From a virus, in IMG/VR virus record IMGVR_UViG_3300046467_001286, positions 1-25,392 of that record: a stretch of DNA of 25,392 nucleotides. One strand, written 5' to 3'. Below the pieces are notes generated by a model that ran no database searches, was not told where the DNA came from, and saw nothing but the letters and a program-made list of their open reading frames with translations. The translations under genes and the position numbers were made by a program. Positions 7,453-25,392 of the stretch are shown here, one piece after another (position 1 is the stretch's first letter; each line of letters opens with the position of its first letter).

Positions 7453-8265
7453 ATGGTTGACAAGATTTGGACAGGCGCGGAAAATACCGTATTCGGTAAT
7501 AATGATAACTGGTTGGATGGTGCGCGGCCAGAAAATGGTGACGATTGTTATTGTACAGCAGATTATAACGTTGATATTATGGGCCAAATTTATTTATATG
7601 ATTTGGGATCATTCACTGTTGAAAGCGGTTACACGGGAACGATTGGCACTAAGGCAATATATTTTGCGCCAACATCAATTACGGCATTAGATTTTAAAGG
7701 TTCATCAGAAAGTTACATTAACGTAAATGCATCAGCTATTGATGTGCGCGTTGATGGCACTGCATCGGCAATAACTGGTAAGAGCGGATTGTATTTATTA
7801 GGATCCGCAATAGATGAACTAAACGTAATATCTGGAACGGTTGGAATAGCGGCTAGGGCCGGCGAAACCGCATCAGTAACAACGCTAACCATAAACGGTG
7901 GAACCGTTAACGTAGGTGATGGCGCTACATTAACAAACGCCACTATCTATAGTGGTAATCTGGTTTCCCAGGCAAGTATAACAACCATCAAAAATTATAA
8001 CGGCGGGGTAACTACTGAAGAAGCGGCCGCCATTACAACGCTAAATTTATTTAACGGTACGCATAACCACGACGGAACCGGAACAATCACCACCGCTAAC
8101 ATTGAGGGTGGGACGTTGGATCTATTCAGCAGCGGGTTAGCCAGGACGATAACAACGCTAAATCTAGAGCCGGGCGGCAGTATTGTTTATGATCCGGATC
8201 TAGTAACGATTACAAACTTAAACATAACCGGCGGCCCCATCTCCATAAATACCGATAATGCCTAA
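7453..8265 (+). CDS. Repetitive beta-solenoid-like protein, candidate fibre or receptor-binding protein
   Basis: This 270-residue protein opens with VDKIWTGAENTVFGNNDNWLDG and ARPENGDDCYC. The W.G......NW..G..P..GD pattern is like the capping segment of many beta-helix or passenger-type proteins. The rest is a succession of short turns with T, N, G, I and V: VTTLTINGGTVNVGDGATLT, ITTLNLFNGTHNHDGTGTIT, ANIEGGTLDLF, ITTLNLEPGG and ITNLNITGG. The period is roughly 20-25 residues. This suggests a parallel beta-helix used for receptor binding or as an adhesive fibre. It is probably translated in series with its neighbours, starting 2 bases after the preceding stop and overlapping the next gene by 8. 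Fibre function is inferred from fold and position. Confidence 0.72.
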   Translation: MVDKIWTGAENTVFGNNDNWLDGARPENGDDCYCTADYNVDIMGQIYLYDLGSFTVESGYTGTIGTKAIYFAPTSITALDFKGSSESYINVNASAIDVRVDGTASAITGKSGLYLLGSAIDELNVISGTVGIAARAGETASVTTLTINGGTVNVGDGATLTNATIYSGNLVSQASITTIKNYNGGVTTEEAAAITTLNLFNGTHNHDGTGTITTANIEGGTLDLFSSGLARTITTLNLEPGGSIVYDPDLVTITNLNITGGPISINTDNA

Positions 8266-13706: not shown

Positions 13707-13738
13707 GTAACTGAATCTATTGTTTAAGAGGAGCAATG

Positions 13739-14299
13739 ATGATTTTATTAGAGCGGGAAAAACTTGTAATCGTTACGCCACCCCATACGGGTAGCGGGGC
13801 ATTGCATCGGATATTATGCAAAGCGGATATAGGCGGGATATGGGTTAATGGCCCAAACCCGGACGGCGGGATAGATCACCATTACGGGGCTATCCATCAG
13901 GGCTGGAAACATGACGGCTACAGCGTAATCTTATTAATCCGGGAACCGTACGCACGGAAATACGGTTTGTACAAACACTATATTTGGTGGTTGGAAAAAC
14001 AGGGATTAACGGCCGATGTTCCGTACAGTAAATATCTAGATAAACCCCCAGGGCATTATATGCACCAGGAAACGCAGTTACAGTTTTACCGGCGTAATGA
14101 TTTAGAGGGTTGCAAGATTGTAACCACCGCTGAAATAGATGATGTTTTAGCGTTTGAATATGATATAGAAATCCGGCCGGCGTTCGATCACACGGCGCTA
14201 TTTAGCGGTGAAAATCCGGTGGTGTTAGATCACCCATATTTTAAAACGGATGATTGGACGGCCGAGGTAAACTTTTGGAAATATTCCGGCAGCATTTAG
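13739..14299 (+). CDS. Sulfotransferase-like protein 1
   Basis: This 186-residue protein resembles PAPS-dependent sulfotransferases. Strand EKLVIVTPPHTGSGAL (residues ~7-22) is like the 5'-phosphosulfate loop (P-K-T-G-T/S), here PHTGSG. ILLIREPYARKYGLYKHY (residues ~64-81) is like the 3'-phosphate region (R.PY.R..S.Y), with G in place of the usual Ser. A histidine-rich segment (IDHHYGAIHQGW) lies between and could be catalytic. It is shorter than typical sulfotransferases (~250-300). AAGAGGAG is 5 bases before ATG 13739; ATG 13736 is also possible. A diverged paralogue starts at 15972. Two terminators follow the stop, so it ends the transcript. The acceptor is unknown, and catalysis is inferred from two motifs only. 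Confidence 0.65.
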   Translation: MILLEREKLVIVTPPHTGSGALHRILCKADIGGIWVNGPNPDGGIDHHYGAIHQGWKHDGYSVILLIREPYARKYGLYKHYIWWLEKQGLTADVPYSKYLDKPPGHYMHQETQLQFYRRNDLEGCKIVTTAEIDDVLAFEYDIEIRPAFDHTALFSGENPVVLDHPYFKTDDWTAEVNFWKYSGSI

Positions 14300-14350: not shown

Positions 14351-14385
14351 CCCCTGGCCGGAGTGTTTCCGGCTGGGGGTTTTTT
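14351..14385 (+). terminator. Strong intrinsic terminator
   Basis: CCCCTGGCCGGA (14351-14362) pairs with TCCGGCTGGGGG (14368-14379) as a 12-bp stem with two G-T wobbles and a 5-base loop. TTTTTT (14380-14385) follows. It separates the recombination operon from the replication gene starting at 14400, so the initiator transcript either reads through or needs another promoter. Confidence 0.85.
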
Positions 14386-15747: not shown

Positions 15748-15975
15748 ATGAGGGCTAGATACGTTTCAGATAATCGGGCGCGGGTCCGGATTTTTACTAA
15801 CGATGTAACCATTTTAACCTACTTGCACCGGCGGTTAATCGGTGAGGGATTCCAGCAGGTGAGTTTTATTAAGTTTTGGGTGCATGTAGTGACGGCGGGC
15901 CGTCGGGGGTTTGTGGATCCTGAGCCGGAAGTACAACCGCTAATGGCGTATGATGAAACCGAGTTTAACGAGTGA
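15748..15975 (+). CDS. Small protein, unknown
   Basis: This 75-residue protein starts at ATG 15748 with GGGAG upstream. It begins with a basic beta-like segment (RARYVSDNRARVRIFTNDVT) and a helix (ILTYLHRRLIGEGF). Strand-like SFIKFWVHVVTAG follows, then an acidic C-terminus (YDETEFNE). No family is recognised. Its stop overlaps the GTG start of the second sulfotransferase-like gene (GTGA), so the two are probably translated together. A role cannot be assigned. Confidence 0.72.
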   Translation: MRARYVSDNRARVRIFTNDVTILTYLHRRLIGEGFQQVSFIKFWVHVVTAGRRGFVDPEPEVQPLMAYDETEFNE

Positions 15976-16550
15976 TTGTATTGAGTTGTGAAAGACTGGT
16001 AATTGCTACGCCGGACGGTTGCGAGGCTACCGCGCTACACGTTGACTTGTGTAGTGGCCGGGGTAATTATTGGATACCCCAGGCAAACGGGATAGGCGGT
16101 TATGATGATTTTGGCGTGATGATCCCTAAGCAATGGAAGGATTACGATAGGGCGGTATTGGTGCGAAACCCGTACACCAGGTTATTAGCGCTCAGGTATG
16201 ATTACAATAAGCGCCGGCGGGCGGTAGAAAAACAGCCGCTATCGTTGAGCGAGTATGTCGATAAAGTTAAAATGTTGCAGATTCCGTTGATATCTGAATG
16301 GGCCGAGCCGCTGGAAGAATACCAACAAATCCATTATGAGAGCATCGAAAAAGATATTCGAAAAATAACCGGGCTGCGGATAGATTGCAACGTAGATCAA
16401 AACGAGGGGTGGCGAAAACGGTTTGAAAAGTTAACGCCGGAGCGGTTAATATTTTTGTTTCAATACCTAGTAGGGGATATTGTGAAGTTTGGTTATACAA
16501 CAAAGGCAATTGGCCCAATCGAGGCCCAAGCATTGAGGGGGATATCTTGA
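15972..16550 (+). CDS. Sulfotransferase-like protein 2 (diverged paralogue)
   Basis: This 192-residue protein from GTG 15972 parallels the one at 13739. Both open with E(K/R)LVI.TP and have a loop ending in .AL (here TPDGCEATAL in place of TPPHTGSGAL). Both carry an R.PY.R segment near residues 60-80 (AVLVRNPYTRLLALRYDY) and a later region with LSEYVDK / YSKYLDK. The phosphosulfate-loop glycine and basic residue are missing, and the Ser of the 3'-phosphate motif is Ala. It may therefore have lost cofactor binding or act on a different ligand. A GTGA overlap couples it to the preceding gene and TTGA to the next. Family membership is likely, catalytic activity uncertain. Confidence 0.6.
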   Translation: MIVLSCERLVIATPDGCEATALHVDLCSGRGNYWIPQANGIGGYDDFGVMIPKQWKDYDRAVLVRNPYTRLLALRYDYNKRRRAVEKQPLSLSEYVDKVKMLQIPLISEWAEPLEEYQQIHYESIEKDIRKITGLRIDCNVDQNEGWRKRFEKLTPERLIFLFQYLVGDIVKFGYTTKAIGPIEAQALRGIS

Positions 16551-17408: not shown

Positions 17409-18257
17409 CTATGCTTCATAGATTTTTCGTTTCATCCCGTCGCTATCTGCGCTAAATTCGATCCAGTAACCGCCGAGCGGCCTCGGCCCTATACCCTTCT
17501 CAATTGACCAACCGCCGGCCCCATCTTTAAACTCATTTTTATATGTACCGCATCGGATAAAATGGATAGATTTCGTTCTTACGTTCCCTGATTTGTTTAG
17601 ATAGGCCCGCTCAACGGGAAACGTTTCTTTTTTATGGATATGCCCAGCAATATAAATATCAGCTTCCACTTGTTCCAGGTATTTTAAAAATGCCGTTGTC
17701 TGGCGTGACCAAGCACCGCCGGCGCCGTATCCATGATGGGAATAGATGACGTTAGAAAACCGGCTACTGTGCTGGTTACCGTAAACCCTAATGAAATTTC
17801 CGTAACCGCCAGCGGCAGTAATGCCGCCAACGTCGCGCATCTTCATTGCGAGCCGGTCTATTAAATCTATTTCCTGTCGTTTGAGAATTGCCGTTTCATG
17901 GTTGCCAGGACAAACAACCACTAAATTTTTTGCGTATGGTTTCCACCATTTAGCAGCGTTGATGATTATCCGGTCGAAATAATCTGGGTGATCGTCTTCG
18001 GGACGAACCGCCCCAGGCCCGCGGGATTTCCTAGGATCGTAGGAACCCATCATACAACAATGAAAATCGCCGAAAACACATATGGCCGCTTTACGTTTTT
18101 TGGCCTCGTCTAGATGTTCTTTGAGTAATTCCCGGTTACAGGCTGGGTTATCAAAGTGGATATCAGATAGGGCTAATATGTATTGTTTCGTTTTGATGGT
18201 TGGAAATTCAAAGCGGATCTCTTGGACGTTGCGCGATACTCTTTTTGTTTTGAACAT
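17409..18257 (-). CDS. Calcineurin-like metallophosphoesterase
   Basis: This 282-residue enzyme has all five metal-site motifs of the calcineurin-like phosphoesterase fold. They are LSDIHFD (D32, H34), FGDFH (G63, D64), PGNHET (N119, H120), YSHHG (H174, H175) and GHIHK (H206, H208). Such enzymes cleave phosphomono- or diesters (DNA ends, cyclic nucleotides, nucleoside phosphates) with two metals. Phage members include SbcD/Mre11-like nucleases, but no SbcC partner is present and the length is too short for SbcD. It is the only gene on the minus strand. ATG is at 18257 with no clear Shine-Dalgarno, so it has its own transcript beginning in the 18258-18322 region. Substrate unknown. Confidence 0.88.
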   Translation of the reverse strand: MFKTKRVSRNVQEIRFEFPTIKTKQYILALSDIHFDNPACNRELLKEHLDEAKKRKAAICVFGDFHCCMMGSYDPRKSRGPGAVRPEDDHPDYFDRIIINAAKWWKPYAKNLVVVCPGNHETAILKRQEIDLIDRLAMKMRDVGGITAAGGYGNFIRVYGNQHSSRFSNVIYSHHGYGAGGAWSRQTTAFLKYLEQVEADIYIAGHIHKKETFPVERAYLNKSGNVRTKSIHFIRCGTYKNEFKDGAGGWSIEKGIGPRPLGGYWIEFSADSDGMKRKIYEA

Positions 18258-18301
18258 GCTAAAATTCTAAATGTTATGTATGCCTAAGCCTATAGAACTT
18301 T

Positions 18302-18307
18302 TATAAT
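18302..18307 (+). promoter_or_regulatory. Possible plus-strand -10 box upstream of the 18323 hairpin
   Basis: TATAAT is an exact -10 consensus in an AT-rich stretch between the divergent phosphoesterase and radical SAM genes. No good -35 is present at 16-18 bases. If active, the transcript would begin near 18314 and meet a terminator hairpin almost at once. Confidence 0.35.
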
Positions 18308-18403: not shown

Positions 18404-19420
18404 ATGGAGTTTTGCACAAATCCATTTAGAACGTTACATATTCACCCCCGCAGTTATATCATTTGTTGCCCAAGTTGGTTTAGTGATAAGAACCAGGTGA
18501 TTGTAAAGGGCGATTATAAAAATCTGTGGGATGTATGGAACCACGACAACTTCAAGCGCTTGCGGCGGTATTGGTTAGAGGGTAATAAATCCCTATGCGA
18601 TAATTGCCCCCTGTTTTTAACACAGCCGCAATGGATCCAGGTGAAGCGGGATTATATGCGGGAGGAAATGAAGGACGCGCCCCAGGTGATTGTGTTCGCT
18701 AATGATGCCACCTGCAATTTACATTGCTGGACATGCCGCAGCAAACCGATTATCGAGAAACGGCAACAGCAAATATTTGAGCAGACGGAAAACGTATTAG
18801 AAACGTTCAAGGACGGCATAAAGTTTTTTAGTGCGATTGGTTCCGGGGATCCGTTCGCGTCGCCGGCATGGTTGAAGATACTGCAAACAATCGACATTAA
18901 GAAGTTTAACAACCCGGAGATAGAGATATTCACCAATGGCGTTTTGTTGCCTAAATATTGGGATAGCCTAAGCCATATACACGATAACATTATCCGTATC
19001 AAAATGAGCGTAGACGCGGCAAGCCCTGGAGTTTATGAGCGTACCAGGTTGGGCGGGCGTTGGCGGGATATGGATAACGCTATGAAATTTATTTCAAAGC
19101 TGGGCAGGCAATACATATTAAATATGATAGTGCAAGCCGATAACTATACCGACATACCGTTATTTATTGAACGTGCAATAGATCACAACGCAACACGGGT
19201 TAACTTAACCATGTTAAAAAACTGGCCTGATTTGCGAGGTGGTACAGCCGCATTTAATGAAGCGGATTTAAGCCAACCAGGAAACCCGGAACATGATAAG
19301 TTTATATCTTTGCTAGAGCGTGAATCGGCGTTATTGAATCATCCTATTGTTGATGCTTCCAGAATCTACCCAGCAGGGCAGGCGATTATTCGCAATATAC
19401 AGCAATCTAATATCTCATAA
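18404..19420 (+). CDS. Radical SAM enzyme with N-terminal twitch/SPASM-like domain
   Basis: This 338-residue enzyme starts at ATG 18404 (GGAGG about 10 bases upstream). It carries the radical SAM signature CNLHCWTC (C104, C108, C111), which binds the 4Fe-4S cluster that cleaves SAM. IGSGDPF then corresponds to the GGEP-like motif. EIEIFTNGVLL and IIRIKMSVDAASPGVYERTR are core barrel strands. Before the barrel, residues 1-70 resemble a twitch/SPASM cluster domain: C4, C21-C22, LWDVWNHDNFKRLRR, and CDNC (C65, C68). This order is typical of twitch-domain radical SAM proteins in phages and bacteria. No substrate is evident. It stands alone: a terminator hairpin lies before it and a promoter for small genes after it. 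Confidence 0.88.
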   Translation: MEFCTNPFRTLHIHPRSYIICCPSWFSDKNQVIVKGDYKNLWDVWNHDNFKRLRRYWLEGNKSLCDNCPLFLTQPQWIQVKRDYMREEMKDAPQVIVFANDATCNLHCWTCRSKPIIEKRQQQIFEQTENVLETFKDGIKFFSAIGSGDPFASPAWLKILQTIDIKKFNNPEIEIFTNGVLLPKYWDSLSHIHDNIIRIKMSVDAASPGVYERTRLGGRWRDMDNAMKFISKLGRQYILNMIVQADNYTDIPLFIERAIDHNATRVNLTMLKNWPDLRGGTAAFNEADLSQPGNPEHDKFISLLERESALLNHPIVDASRIYPAGQAIIRNIQQSNIS

Positions 19421-19457
19421 TATTATGATTATTTTCATTAATTAGGTGTGTTAGGGT

Positions 19458-19486
19458 TTGCATATTGTCGATAGTATGTATATAAT
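19458..19486 (+). promoter_or_regulatory. Strong sigma70-type promoter
   Basis: TTGCAT (19458-19463) and TATAAT (19481-19486) are 17 bases apart, with an AT-rich upstream segment. This is the best promoter in the window. Transcription would start near 19493, giving a leader of about 50 bases to the first small gene at 19542. Confidence 0.85.
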
Positions 19487-19500
19487 CATAGCATAAGAGT

Positions 19501-19526
19501 AAACGAAGTTAAAACCTAAAACGAAG
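19501..19526 (+). promoter_or_regulatory. Leader element AAACGAAGTTAAA and second ACGAAG copy
   Basis: AAACGAAGTTAAA at 19501-19513 is identical to 11402-11414, and AAACGAAG recurs at 19519. It lies just downstream of the predicted start of transcription and about 40 bases before ATG 19542. A shared operator, mRNA signal or processing site is inferred. Confidence 0.5.
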
Positions 19527-19541
19527 AAAGAGAGTAAGACA

Positions 19542-19730
19542 ATGGATTACAACGCAATATGGGAAATCATCAAAAGCAAAGTAGACAAAGCAACGCTATA
19601 TTATGCGGATACTTTGAGTAATAAGAATATTCATATGCTAGTTACAACGGCAGTTGATAACGGGGTATATTCCGCGGCGGTAGAGTTAGAATCCTGGGCC
19701 GATGATGAACTAGAAAAACTGAACAGCTAA
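19542..19730 (+). CDS. Small tandem paralogue 1
   Basis: This 62-residue acidic helical protein is the first of three related small genes. It shares a C-terminal pattern with the next two: (S/A)...Y...L.......LV..A.D.G...AA..LESWA. Here it reads VDKATLYYADTLSN, then LVTTAVDNGVYSAAVELESW. It has no cysteines, no signal peptide and no membrane segment. A strong promoter is 55 bases upstream and AAAGAGAG gives the ribosome site. Highly expressed small early phage proteins often redirect host machinery or block defences; that is inference. No family is recognised. Confidence 0.8.
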   Translation: MDYNAIWEIIKSKVDKATLYYADTLSNKNIHMLVTTAVDNGVYSAAVELESWADDELEKLNS

Positions 19731-19747
19731 AACATAGGGTTAGAACT

Positions 19748-19972
19748 ATGAGAGATTATAGCGCGGCGTTTATCGTTGCAGTTATCATACAGATACGCAA
19801 AAACGTTACCAAATCTACCAAGCGTTACCTGGGTAGTTTGGATTCACACGATAGGATAGACCTGGTAAGCATCGCATATGATGAAGGTATTTTAATGGCA
19901 GCGGCTACCCTGGAAAGCTGGGCGGCAGGCCAAACATGCGGCCCGTTAAATGATCCGCACACAAAACAATAA
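19748..19972 (+). CDS. Small tandem paralogue 2
   Basis: This 74-residue protein aligns best with paralogue 1 over about 45 residues: VTKSTKRYLGSLDS, then LVSIAYDEGILMAAATLESW. The N-terminus carries a hydrophobic helix (AAFIVAVIIQI). An extra tail (GQTCGPLNDPHTKQ) is absent from the others. It starts 17 bases after gene 1, with a weak ribosome site (AGGG). Because it shares a transcript with gene 1, the family probably expanded by tandem duplication and diverged. Function unknown. Confidence 0.8.
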   Translation: MRDYSAAFIVAVIIQIRKNVTKSTKRYLGSLDSHDRIDLVSIAYDEGILMAAATLESWAAGQTCGPLNDPHTKQ

Positions 19973-19996
19973 CAATAAACATAGGAGGTATTCGGG

Positions 19997-20188
19997 ATGA
20001 ATACTAAAAACATTAGGGCAGATCTATTGCCAGTAGTATTGCAACACAGCAGTACAGCCGCTAATAAATGGTTGAGTGGCCAGGGGCAGGAAACTAAACG
20101 GGATATAGCAGACCTTGCCAAGACTAAAGGAATACCGGAAGCTATCGCAGCACTGGAAACCCGATCTATTGGGTTATCTATCTGGTAA
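19997..20188 (+). CDS. Small tandem paralogue 3
   Basis: This 63-residue protein is the most diverged member. It keeps the spacing SSTAANKWLSGQGQ, then DIADLAKTKGIPEAIAALET. The G(I/V)..A...LE core matches, but LESWA has become LETRS. It has the strongest ribosome site of the three (AGGAGGT, 7 bases before ATG 19997). A perfect terminator 30 bases past the stop closes the unit. Homology to the other two rests on pattern and position, so it is less certain than for genes 1 and 2. Confidence 0.78.
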   Translation: MNTKNIRADLLPVVLQHSSTAANKWLSGQGQETKRDIADLAKTKGIPEAIAALETRSIGLSIW

Positions 20189-20217
20189 CAGAAACAATAA
20201 GAATATAAAACATAAGG

Positions 20218-20247
20218 CCCAGGGGATAATAAACCCCTGGGTTTTTT
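20218..20247 (+). terminator. Perfect intrinsic terminator
   Basis: CCCAGGGG (20218-20225) and CCCCTGGG (20234-20241) form an 8-bp perfect stem with an 8-base AT-rich loop. TTTTTT (20242-20247) follows. It closes the small-paralogue unit and separates it from the packaging genes starting at 20266. Confidence 0.92.
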
Positions 20248-20265: not shown

Positions 20266-20472
20266 ATGGATAAAACACAACTGATAGAGTTGATAGAGTA
20301 TAGGCGAATAGTCAAAGGGCTAAGGGTTACCCAGGCAGCACGGGCAGCAGGGGTAAACCAAGCTACCTGGCAACGTATGAGTAAAGGCGATATACAACCC
20401 AGTTGGGAAATGTTATTTACTATTGCTGCATCCCTGGGGCTAGGTGTTGGGGTAGTATGCTATGAGCGCTAA
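20266..20472 (+). CDS. Small helix-turn-helix (XRE-type) protein
   Basis: This 68-residue protein has an XRE/Cro-type DNA-binding domain over most of its length: IEYRRIVKGLRVTQAARAAG, then VNQATWQRMSKGDIQPSWEM with LFTIAASLGL. The recognition helix is around NQATWQRMSKG. ATG 20266 is preferred; GTG 20257 would add three residues. It follows the terminator at 20247 by 18 bases and overlaps the HNH gene start. It could control the late or packaging genes next to it. No lysogeny partner (integrase, cI-like repressor) is seen, so it is not evidence of a temperate phage. Confidence 0.82.
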   Translation: MDKTQLIELIEYRRIVKGLRVTQAARAAGVNQATWQRMSKGDIQPSWEMLFTIAASLGLGVGVVCYER

Positions 20473-20791
20473 GAGCTGCTGTAGATTCTGCTGTAAGCGT
20501 GACTGTAAGTGCATGACCGATAAGCCCAGGTCTATACCAATTAGCTGGACGGATAAAAGGGATACGGCATCAAAGCGGGGCTATGGCTACAAGTGGAAGC
20601 GGGCGCGGTTGGTATTCCTGCGTAACAATCCGCTATGTATTGAGTGCCTGAGGGCCGATAAGGTTACCCCCGGTTTCGCAGTAGACCACATACAACCACA
20701 CCGAGGCGATATGGTTTTGTTTTGGAATGTCGATAATTGGCAGACATTATGTGAGAAATGCCACAACACCAAAACGGGATTGGGGAATTAA
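20462..20791 (+). CDS. HNH endonuclease next to the terminase
   Basis: This 109-residue protein has an HNH nuclease core. FLRNNPLCIECL (C59, C62) and CEKCHNTKTG (C97, C100) form the zinc site. AVDHIQPHRGD gives the catalytic DH (D75, H76), and NVDNWQTLC the central Asn. The N-terminus has an additional cysteine-rich segment (CCRFCCKRDCKC). In HK97-type phages an HNH protein encoded beside terminase cooperates with TerL at cos cleavage. The gene lies just upstream of the small terminase, which fits that role. ATG 20462 overlaps the HTH gene by 11 bases. Confidence 0.88.
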   Translation: MSAKSCCRFCCKRDCKCMTDKPRSIPISWTDKRDTASKRGYGYKWKRARLVFLRNNPLCIECLRADKVTPGFAVDHIQPHRGDMVLFWNVDNWQTLCEKCHNTKTGLGN

Positions 20792-20900
20792 CAATAAAGG
20801 GGGGGGGGTGTTTTTCTGTGGGCGTATTCACAGGAAGACCTCAAGCCAACCCGCGCGTTTTTTTCCCCAAAAAATAGCGATTCGAACAGGAGTAAAAAAA
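20792..20900 (+). other. Noncoding gap with G10 run; candidate cos/packaging region
   Basis: This 109-base gap between HNH and TerS contains ten consecutive G (20799-20808). It also has a T5 run, and a T7-C4-A6 block around 20859-20875 whose T and A arms can pair. Its place next to HNH and TerS is where cos-type phages keep their cleavage site. No overhang can be identified by eye. A ribosome site (AGGAG) at its end serves TerS. Confidence 0.35.
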
Positions 20901-25259: not shown

Positions 25260-25287
25260 ATAATTCAAGCATCGGGAAACGATTAGT

Positions 25288-25392
25288 AACCCGGTAACAT
25301 TCTAAAGCAACGCCGTTTAGGCTGGGCTATAGGCAATATTTTTTGTTTATAGGTGGGCCTATGTAATGGCGCACCGTGAAAACTCTTATTTC
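25288..25392. repeat. Terminal redundancy, right copy
   Basis: This is the copy of 29-133 at the window's right end, with C at 25298 where the left copy has A at 39. In the circular genome the protease stop (25259) is followed by about 145 noncoding bases to the capsid start. Those bases hold a 6-bp inverted pair, ATAGGC and GCCTAT, about 23 bases apart. No clear promoter is seen there. Confidence 0.9.

Follow-up and report, generated by a model that had tools for sequence, protein, structure and literature searches.

Anti-defence and host-takeover proteins are often encoded at the ends of phage genomes and by small genes with strong promoters. In archaeal viruses, a single strong early promoter sequence is common to the anti-defence genes located near the genome termini (PMC11065993). 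Morons are recognised by the promoter and terminator of their own that flank them (PMC3918226), and promoters under Aca control typically contain an inverted repeat in their core (PMC9410906). Among cos phages, HK97 combines an HNH gene with a cos site and makes 3' overhangs; cleavage at cos is stimulated by gp74, its HNH protein (PMC9410871). In lambda, either genome end was reported to leave first at near 50%, a result that disputes the last-in-first-out model (PMC10287942).

Here we describe three small tandem genes close to one genome end in IMGVR_UViG_3300046467_001286, a viral record 25,392 bases long that was analysed over its whole length and is called the window below. An earlier note, made from the letters of this DNA, had read these genes as a self-contained unit of paralogues with a strong promoter and terminator of their own. 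We compare the unit with related phages and weigh what it may be for.

Results

The source genome

The record is taken as a near-whole, circularly assembled genome because its two ends, the first 133 and the last 128 bases (1-133 and 25265-25392), are 93% identical over ~130 bases. They read as two variant versions of one stretch, the record being nearly a full circle. Its genes follow the order HNH, TerS, TerL, portal, protease and capsid, and there is a replication block; protease, capsid and replication genes were named by reading the ORFs. No tRNA was found in the window. TerL is less than 60% identical to that of any of 50,697 phage records, and none of these records contains a near DNA match to the last 8.5 kb of the window; the phage therefore belongs to an uncultured group. 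Relatives were defined by TerL at 60-96% identity and taken from IMG/VR. A Planctomycete MAG contig considered as a clue to the host has HNH, TerS and TerL, the latter 43% identical, and was set aside, as it holds no member of the family described below. Elsewhere in the window, two related proteins (13736-14299 and 15972-16550, plus strand) look sulfotransferase-like by eye, with shared starts REKLVIVTPP / CERLVIATP and later IREPYAR / VRNPYTR, and are carried by relatives too. The features needed below are as follows.

17409-18257, minus strand: calcineurin-like metallophosphoesterase gene, divergent neighbour of the slot in the window and in five family-carrying relatives
18289-18307, plus strand: second copy of the promoter block, CCTATAGAACTTTTATAAT, 1 mismatch, upstream of the radical SAM gene
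18404-19420, plus strand: radical SAM (twitch-type) protein gene, neighbour of the unit, present in this phage alone among the fetched relatives
19457-19486, plus strand: unit promoter, TTTGCA-N18-TATAAT (equally TTGCAT-N17-TATAAT), 10/12 consensus positions
19468-19486, plus strand: promoter block CCGATA-N7-TATAAT within the unit promoter, 1 mismatch
19542-19730, plus strand: p1, 62 aa, pI 4.3, family member
19748-19972, plus strand: p2, 74 aa, pI 6.7, family member
19997-20188, plus strand: p3, 63 aa, pI 9.4, divergent member, closest to the q23 group
20214-20247, plus strand: intrinsic terminator, 12-bp stem, 8-nt loop, U6 tail
20266-20472, plus strand: small Xre-type HTH protein gene, directly after the terminator, with GTG 20257 as a possible alternative start
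20462-20791, plus strand: HNH endonuclease gene, adjoining cos
20840-20849, no strand: inferred cos site, CTCAAGCCAA, placed from relatives' contig ends

Three small genes between a promoter and a terminator

The three ORFs of 62, 74 and 63 residues that had been claimed for this place are present there, separated by 17 nt (p1-p2) and 24 nt (p2-p3), with about 70 nt from p3 to the HTH gene. In base composition they differ little from the genome (0.43 versus 0.46). Upstream lies a sigma-70-like promoter with a TCGATA element and a perfect TATAAT -10, and about 50 nt separate it from p1, in agreement with the leader of ~50 bases that had been described. The claim that this is the best promoter of the window holds as to its perfect -10 and its conservation in relatives, but not as to its score: by a simple measure it is equalled by sites at 7457, 15569 and 25237, and the overall count of promoter-like sites in the window is that expected after shuffling.

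The strong terminator reported after p3 is confirmed (-20.8 kcal/mol, z -4.5, no shuffle equally good). A simple scan reported it on the minus strand only, probably owing to pairing of the stem into the T run. Among relatives it has a counterpart in L007 alone, again strong (z -4.8), and no comparable terminator precedes HNH in L135 or in the q23 group, where the family gene runs almost straight into HNH. Another strong terminator-like hairpin, with a 13-bp stem and a TTTTTT tail, lies in the replication block (14351-14379, plus strand).

Relatedness and predicted structure of the three proteins

Pairwise comparison of p1 and p2 gave a score of 80 (Z 12.7) that was matched by 0 of 5000 shuffles, and by sequence the two are paralogues beyond doubt. 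In the same shuffle test, p2 and p3 were also similar (Z 5.3, p 8e-4), and similarity between p1 and p3 was not significant (p 0.31). The third protein is thus a weaker member, which joins the family via profile, motif and a matching predicted four-helix layout, and the earlier claim of three paralogues stands with this qualification. The shared motif is likewise found in part as it was described: G[IV]..A...LE occurs in all three proteins, whereas the following W is confined to p1 and p2, as is the upstream Y, in place of which p3 has W-L. When an extended form, A...G[IV]..A...[LI]E, was run against six-frame ORFs totalling 1.46 million residues, it matched 6 ORFs, all of them family members; as the pattern was built from the members, this count measures its specificity and is not independent proof. 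The proteins differ in charge (pI as listed) and in their C-terminal tails.

The model of p2, from an alignment of eight rows (A5), has helices at 6-18, 22-30, 33-46 and 48-63 (mean pLDDT 81, pTM 0.66). That of p3, of moderate confidence (mean pLDDT 74, pTM 0.54), has helices at 10-17, 20-27, 31-44 and 46-59; its alignment (A7) drew its further rows from the q23 group only and included neither p1 nor p2. In both models the conserved G sits at the turn between the last two helices. Three unrelated folds had been named as the outcome that would remove the paralogy claim, and the two models compared, p2 and p3, have four helices in the same order. Searches with the p2 fold gave no significant match in PDB via Foldseek (best E 1.3), a best match of E 0.5 among viral structures and, in VIA-align, RuvBL helicase segments as the best hit (Z 5.7, within the range for small helical bundles). 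The missing fold match does not show a new fold.

The earlier statement that no family could be recognised is upheld by searches of Pfam, PHROGs, NCBIfam and PADLOC, in which p1-p3 had no match below E 0.01; matches to PPV_E2_N (0.014) and DUF7000 (0.14) were taken as chance. A sequence profile search of PDB returned nothing below 0.03. Searched against isolated phages, P0001, P0003, P0005 and P0006 gave no match and P0002 gave one chance match (E 4). Scans of IMG/VR with p1, p2 and p3 found no close relative, and a scan with the q23 group returned its three already-known records only. No homology of p1-p3 to anti-defence proteins was found, nor any match to Q or other late-regulator families. 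Two candidates were rejected: T7 gp5.5, an H-NS inhibitor, was a weak PHROG lead for P0006 (E 0.07) and scores -1.3 bits with the family profile, and AcrIF1 of JBD30 has no similarity to p1-p3.

One family in a fixed slot of related phages

A search of related phages, which the earlier note had proposed along with a look at copy number, found one member in each of five relatives and three copies in the window. Profile matches occurred in 6 of 20 related records, every one in the same slot, between the divergent metallophosphoesterase gene and HNH/cos/terS/terL (window, L007, L021, L023, L132 and L135). Nine records reach the HNH end, and the family is found in six of them; G009, G018 and G017 are without it, the first two having the same HNH/cos arrangement. 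In G009 (L022 16780-17190) the slot holds G-rich imperfect repeats ('GGTGGCTA', 'ACTGGGT') without a convincing gene. The unit has its own promoter and terminator by sequence evidence, as had been claimed, but sits in a conserved slot, so that it is not simply an isolated cassette.

The members vary in form. In L007, q7 has 93 residues and lies between divergent metallophosphoesterase and HTH genes; p1 and p2 align with its residues 1-57, and its tail carries two CxxCxGxG motifs, a zinc-type tail present in one of the eight family members. Residues 70-92 of this tail, and these only, weakly match the PHROG 'anti-termination protein Q-like' (E 0.005). The q23 group (q21, q23 and q87) consists of a 56-residue gene directly before HNH in L021, L023 and L087/L132. 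The L135 member, q135, has 62 residues and was found at E 1e-4 by a profile built without it; 2 bases after it begins a cytosine-C5 methyltransferase-like gene, followed by an HTH gene, a 49-residue ORF and HNH. With leave-one-out profiles, each of the 7 members tested was the top hit out of 22,890 ORFs, at E values between 5e-10 and 0.11. Within the q23 group, dN/dS is 0.13 (q23/q87) and 0.02 (q21/q23), which shows strong purifying selection on the protein in this sub-branch. A tree of the eight members, with p1, p2, q7 and q135 against p3, q23, q87 and q21 at 79/86, does not resolve.

Conservation extends to the promoter. A block, CCGATA-N7-TATAAT, was derived by eye from four sites (window, L007, L023 and L135) and then scanned, and is therefore post hoc; the copies in L132 and at window 18289 turned up only after the pattern was set. 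Allowing up to 1 mismatch, it lies upstream of family genes in 6 of 6 genomes, q7 among them being preceded by a promoter-like block, and occurs nowhere else on either strand of ~1.3 Mb of fetched DNA except for the 18289 copy. Per-region chance was 0.000-0.011 by first-order Markov resampling. An operator palindrome common to all family promoters was sought and not found: the longest perfect arm of an inverted repeat in the window promoter is 4 nt (P 0.70), and those in relatives are 7 nt in L007 (P 0.08), 8 nt in L135 (P 0.02) and 9 nt in L132 (P 0.004).

Neighbouring genes and the genome end

A phosphoesterase of ~285 residues is found in all six family carriers, and G009 and G018 have a different one of 224 residues. 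The window's copy has a weak local match, over 35 residues, to an anti-phage phosphoesterase model (E 1.5e-4). The radical SAM protein matches NCBIfam NF033640 (E 3e-15, below the model's cut-off) and has a SPASM-like N-terminus; no match to it was found in isolated phages or in the fetched DNA of the five family-carrying relatives. Downstream, the HTH protein matches HTH_31 (E 1.9e-6), with similar genes in L007 and L135 and none in the q23 group. It is not similar to the JBD30_036 protein, the one Aca compared (p 0.20), which we take to be Aca1. Between cos and terS, L008 (1-1300) contains a gene reading like a fusion of a ParB-type protein and a DNA methylase, which would be one more modification gene at this genome end.

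Left ends of nine related contigs start at one homologous place, equivalent to window 20850, which lies about 510-600 bases before terL and further upstream of it where extra genes intervene. In five relatives the right end, ...GAC, falls directly behind HNH, at the equivalent of window 20839. The ten bases in between, 20840-20849, are absent from the relatives' assembled ends and would represent single-stranded 3' overhangs removed in library making. Since the contig ends place cos at 20840-20849, no part of the unit is more than 1.4 kb from the right genome end, and its promoter is 1.38 kb away. Were ejection to follow the classical lambda model, this end would enter the cell first; given the lambda result cited above, we use this as a supporting argument only.

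Discussion

The unit appears to be the three-copy form of an orphan family of ~60-residue, predicted four-helix proteins in a fixed slot of an uncultured clade of cos phages. We tentatively take these proteins to act early on the host, in anti-defence or takeover, as a family stationed at the genome end and present here in three copies; among the explanations weighed this one serves best, while falling somewhat short of an even chance. This role is an inference that draws on position, promoter, neighbours and copy number. Host RNA polymerase would read the unit early from its strong promoter, and the terminator would keep that transcription out of the HTH-HNH-cos-terminase genes. The small proteins would then bind and block a host protein, be it a defence or a takeover target, and the three copies, with their different charges and tails, might bind different targets or assemble together. 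An anti-defence setting is possible in that C5-cytosine methyltransferase-like and HTH genes follow q135 and an HTH gene follows the family gene in the window and L007; the block shared by the family promoters is also a close parallel to the common promoter of the archaeal anti-defence genes (PMC11065993). Together, the methyltransferase-like (L135), methylase-like (L008), HTH and radical SAM neighbours suggest a region dealing with the host. Points against an early role on the host are that searches found neither homology to an anti-defence protein or named family nor a significant fold match, the abutment of the q23 gene on HNH, the retention of the terminator in L007 only, and the two relatives, G009 and G018, that lack the gene.

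The main rival is late-gene regulation, in which the proteins would act on the downstream HTH-HNH-terminase-head operon, for example by allowing RNA polymerase to read through the terminator at 20214-20247, in the way that lambda Q acts at the pR'-tR' unit; we consider it rather unlikely, though a serious candidate. The window and L007 both have the order promoter, small genes, terminator and late operon, no other good promoter lies between terminator and HTH, and the q7 tail has its weak Q-like match. However, that tail belongs to a single member, p1-p3 resemble no late regulator, nothing comparable to the terminator precedes HNH in L135 or the q23 group, and two relatives do without the gene.

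That the unit is a classical moron, recently acquired cargo serving a lysogenic host, is improbable. Its own promoter and terminator fit such an origin, and of the phages seen this one alone has three copies, but homologues behind the same promoter block occupy the slot in five relatives and base composition is near the genome's. Close relatives therefore do carry the family at this position, and the extra copies alone are unique to the window. A little less probable still is an accessory role in packaging, with the proteins acting at cos together with terminase and the HNH endonuclease encoded next to them. HNH and cos are never far from the gene, which immediately precedes HNH in the q23 group, and stimulation of cos cleavage by HK97 gp74 offers a precedent; against this, G009 and G018 keep the HNH/cos arrangement without the gene, and in L135 methyltransferase-like and HTH genes intervene. 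Least of all do we credit a phage-encoded modified-peptide system in which the twitch-type radical SAM enzyme next door would modify p1-p3 after translation (the conserved helical domain as leader, the variable C-terminal tails as cores). This very improbable reading draws on the adjacency of two units that each carry a copy of the promoter block and on the differing tails of p1-p3, but has against it that the DNA fetched for the five family-carrying relatives yielded no relative of the enzyme and that no peptide-leader family was matched.

The three-gene set is compact and easy to express and screen, and family motif and promoter block together offer a means of finding more cargo genes in this uncultured clade. 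The family was previously unnamed; as an orphan family it is new, while the kind of setting in which it lies is known.

How the setting compares with described systems can be stated point by point. Like morons, the unit consists of small genes with a promoter and terminator of their own between core phage modules; unlike them, it has homologues with the same block in the slot of five relatives, and so is a resident element of its clade rather than an isolated insertion. Like acr-aca and other short-gene operons, it has tandem genes of <200 aa on one strand with gaps of <250 bp, an HTH gene downstream and a constitutive-looking promoter. The unit with its HTH gene has the short-gene geometry used for mining acr-aca operons in PMC9765179, a procedure that further needs an Acr homologue. 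It departs from acr-aca operons in the strong terminator between its small genes and the HTH gene, in a window promoter without inverted repeat, in an HTH protein without similarity to the one Aca compared, in the absence of the HTH gene from the q23 group, and in that no Acr homology was found (one Acr compared). With the early anti-defence genes of archaeal rudiviruses (PMC11065993) it has in common small genes near a terminus and a shared strong promoter sequence, the differences being that its promoter is bacterial-type and that the unit is known here from sequence alone. Finally, as in HK97-type cos/HNH/terminase regions, HNH lies next to cos with TerS and TerL on the other side, and the ends fit 3' overhangs; what sets this phage apart is the small-protein family beside HNH, for which no named counterpart was found in such regions.
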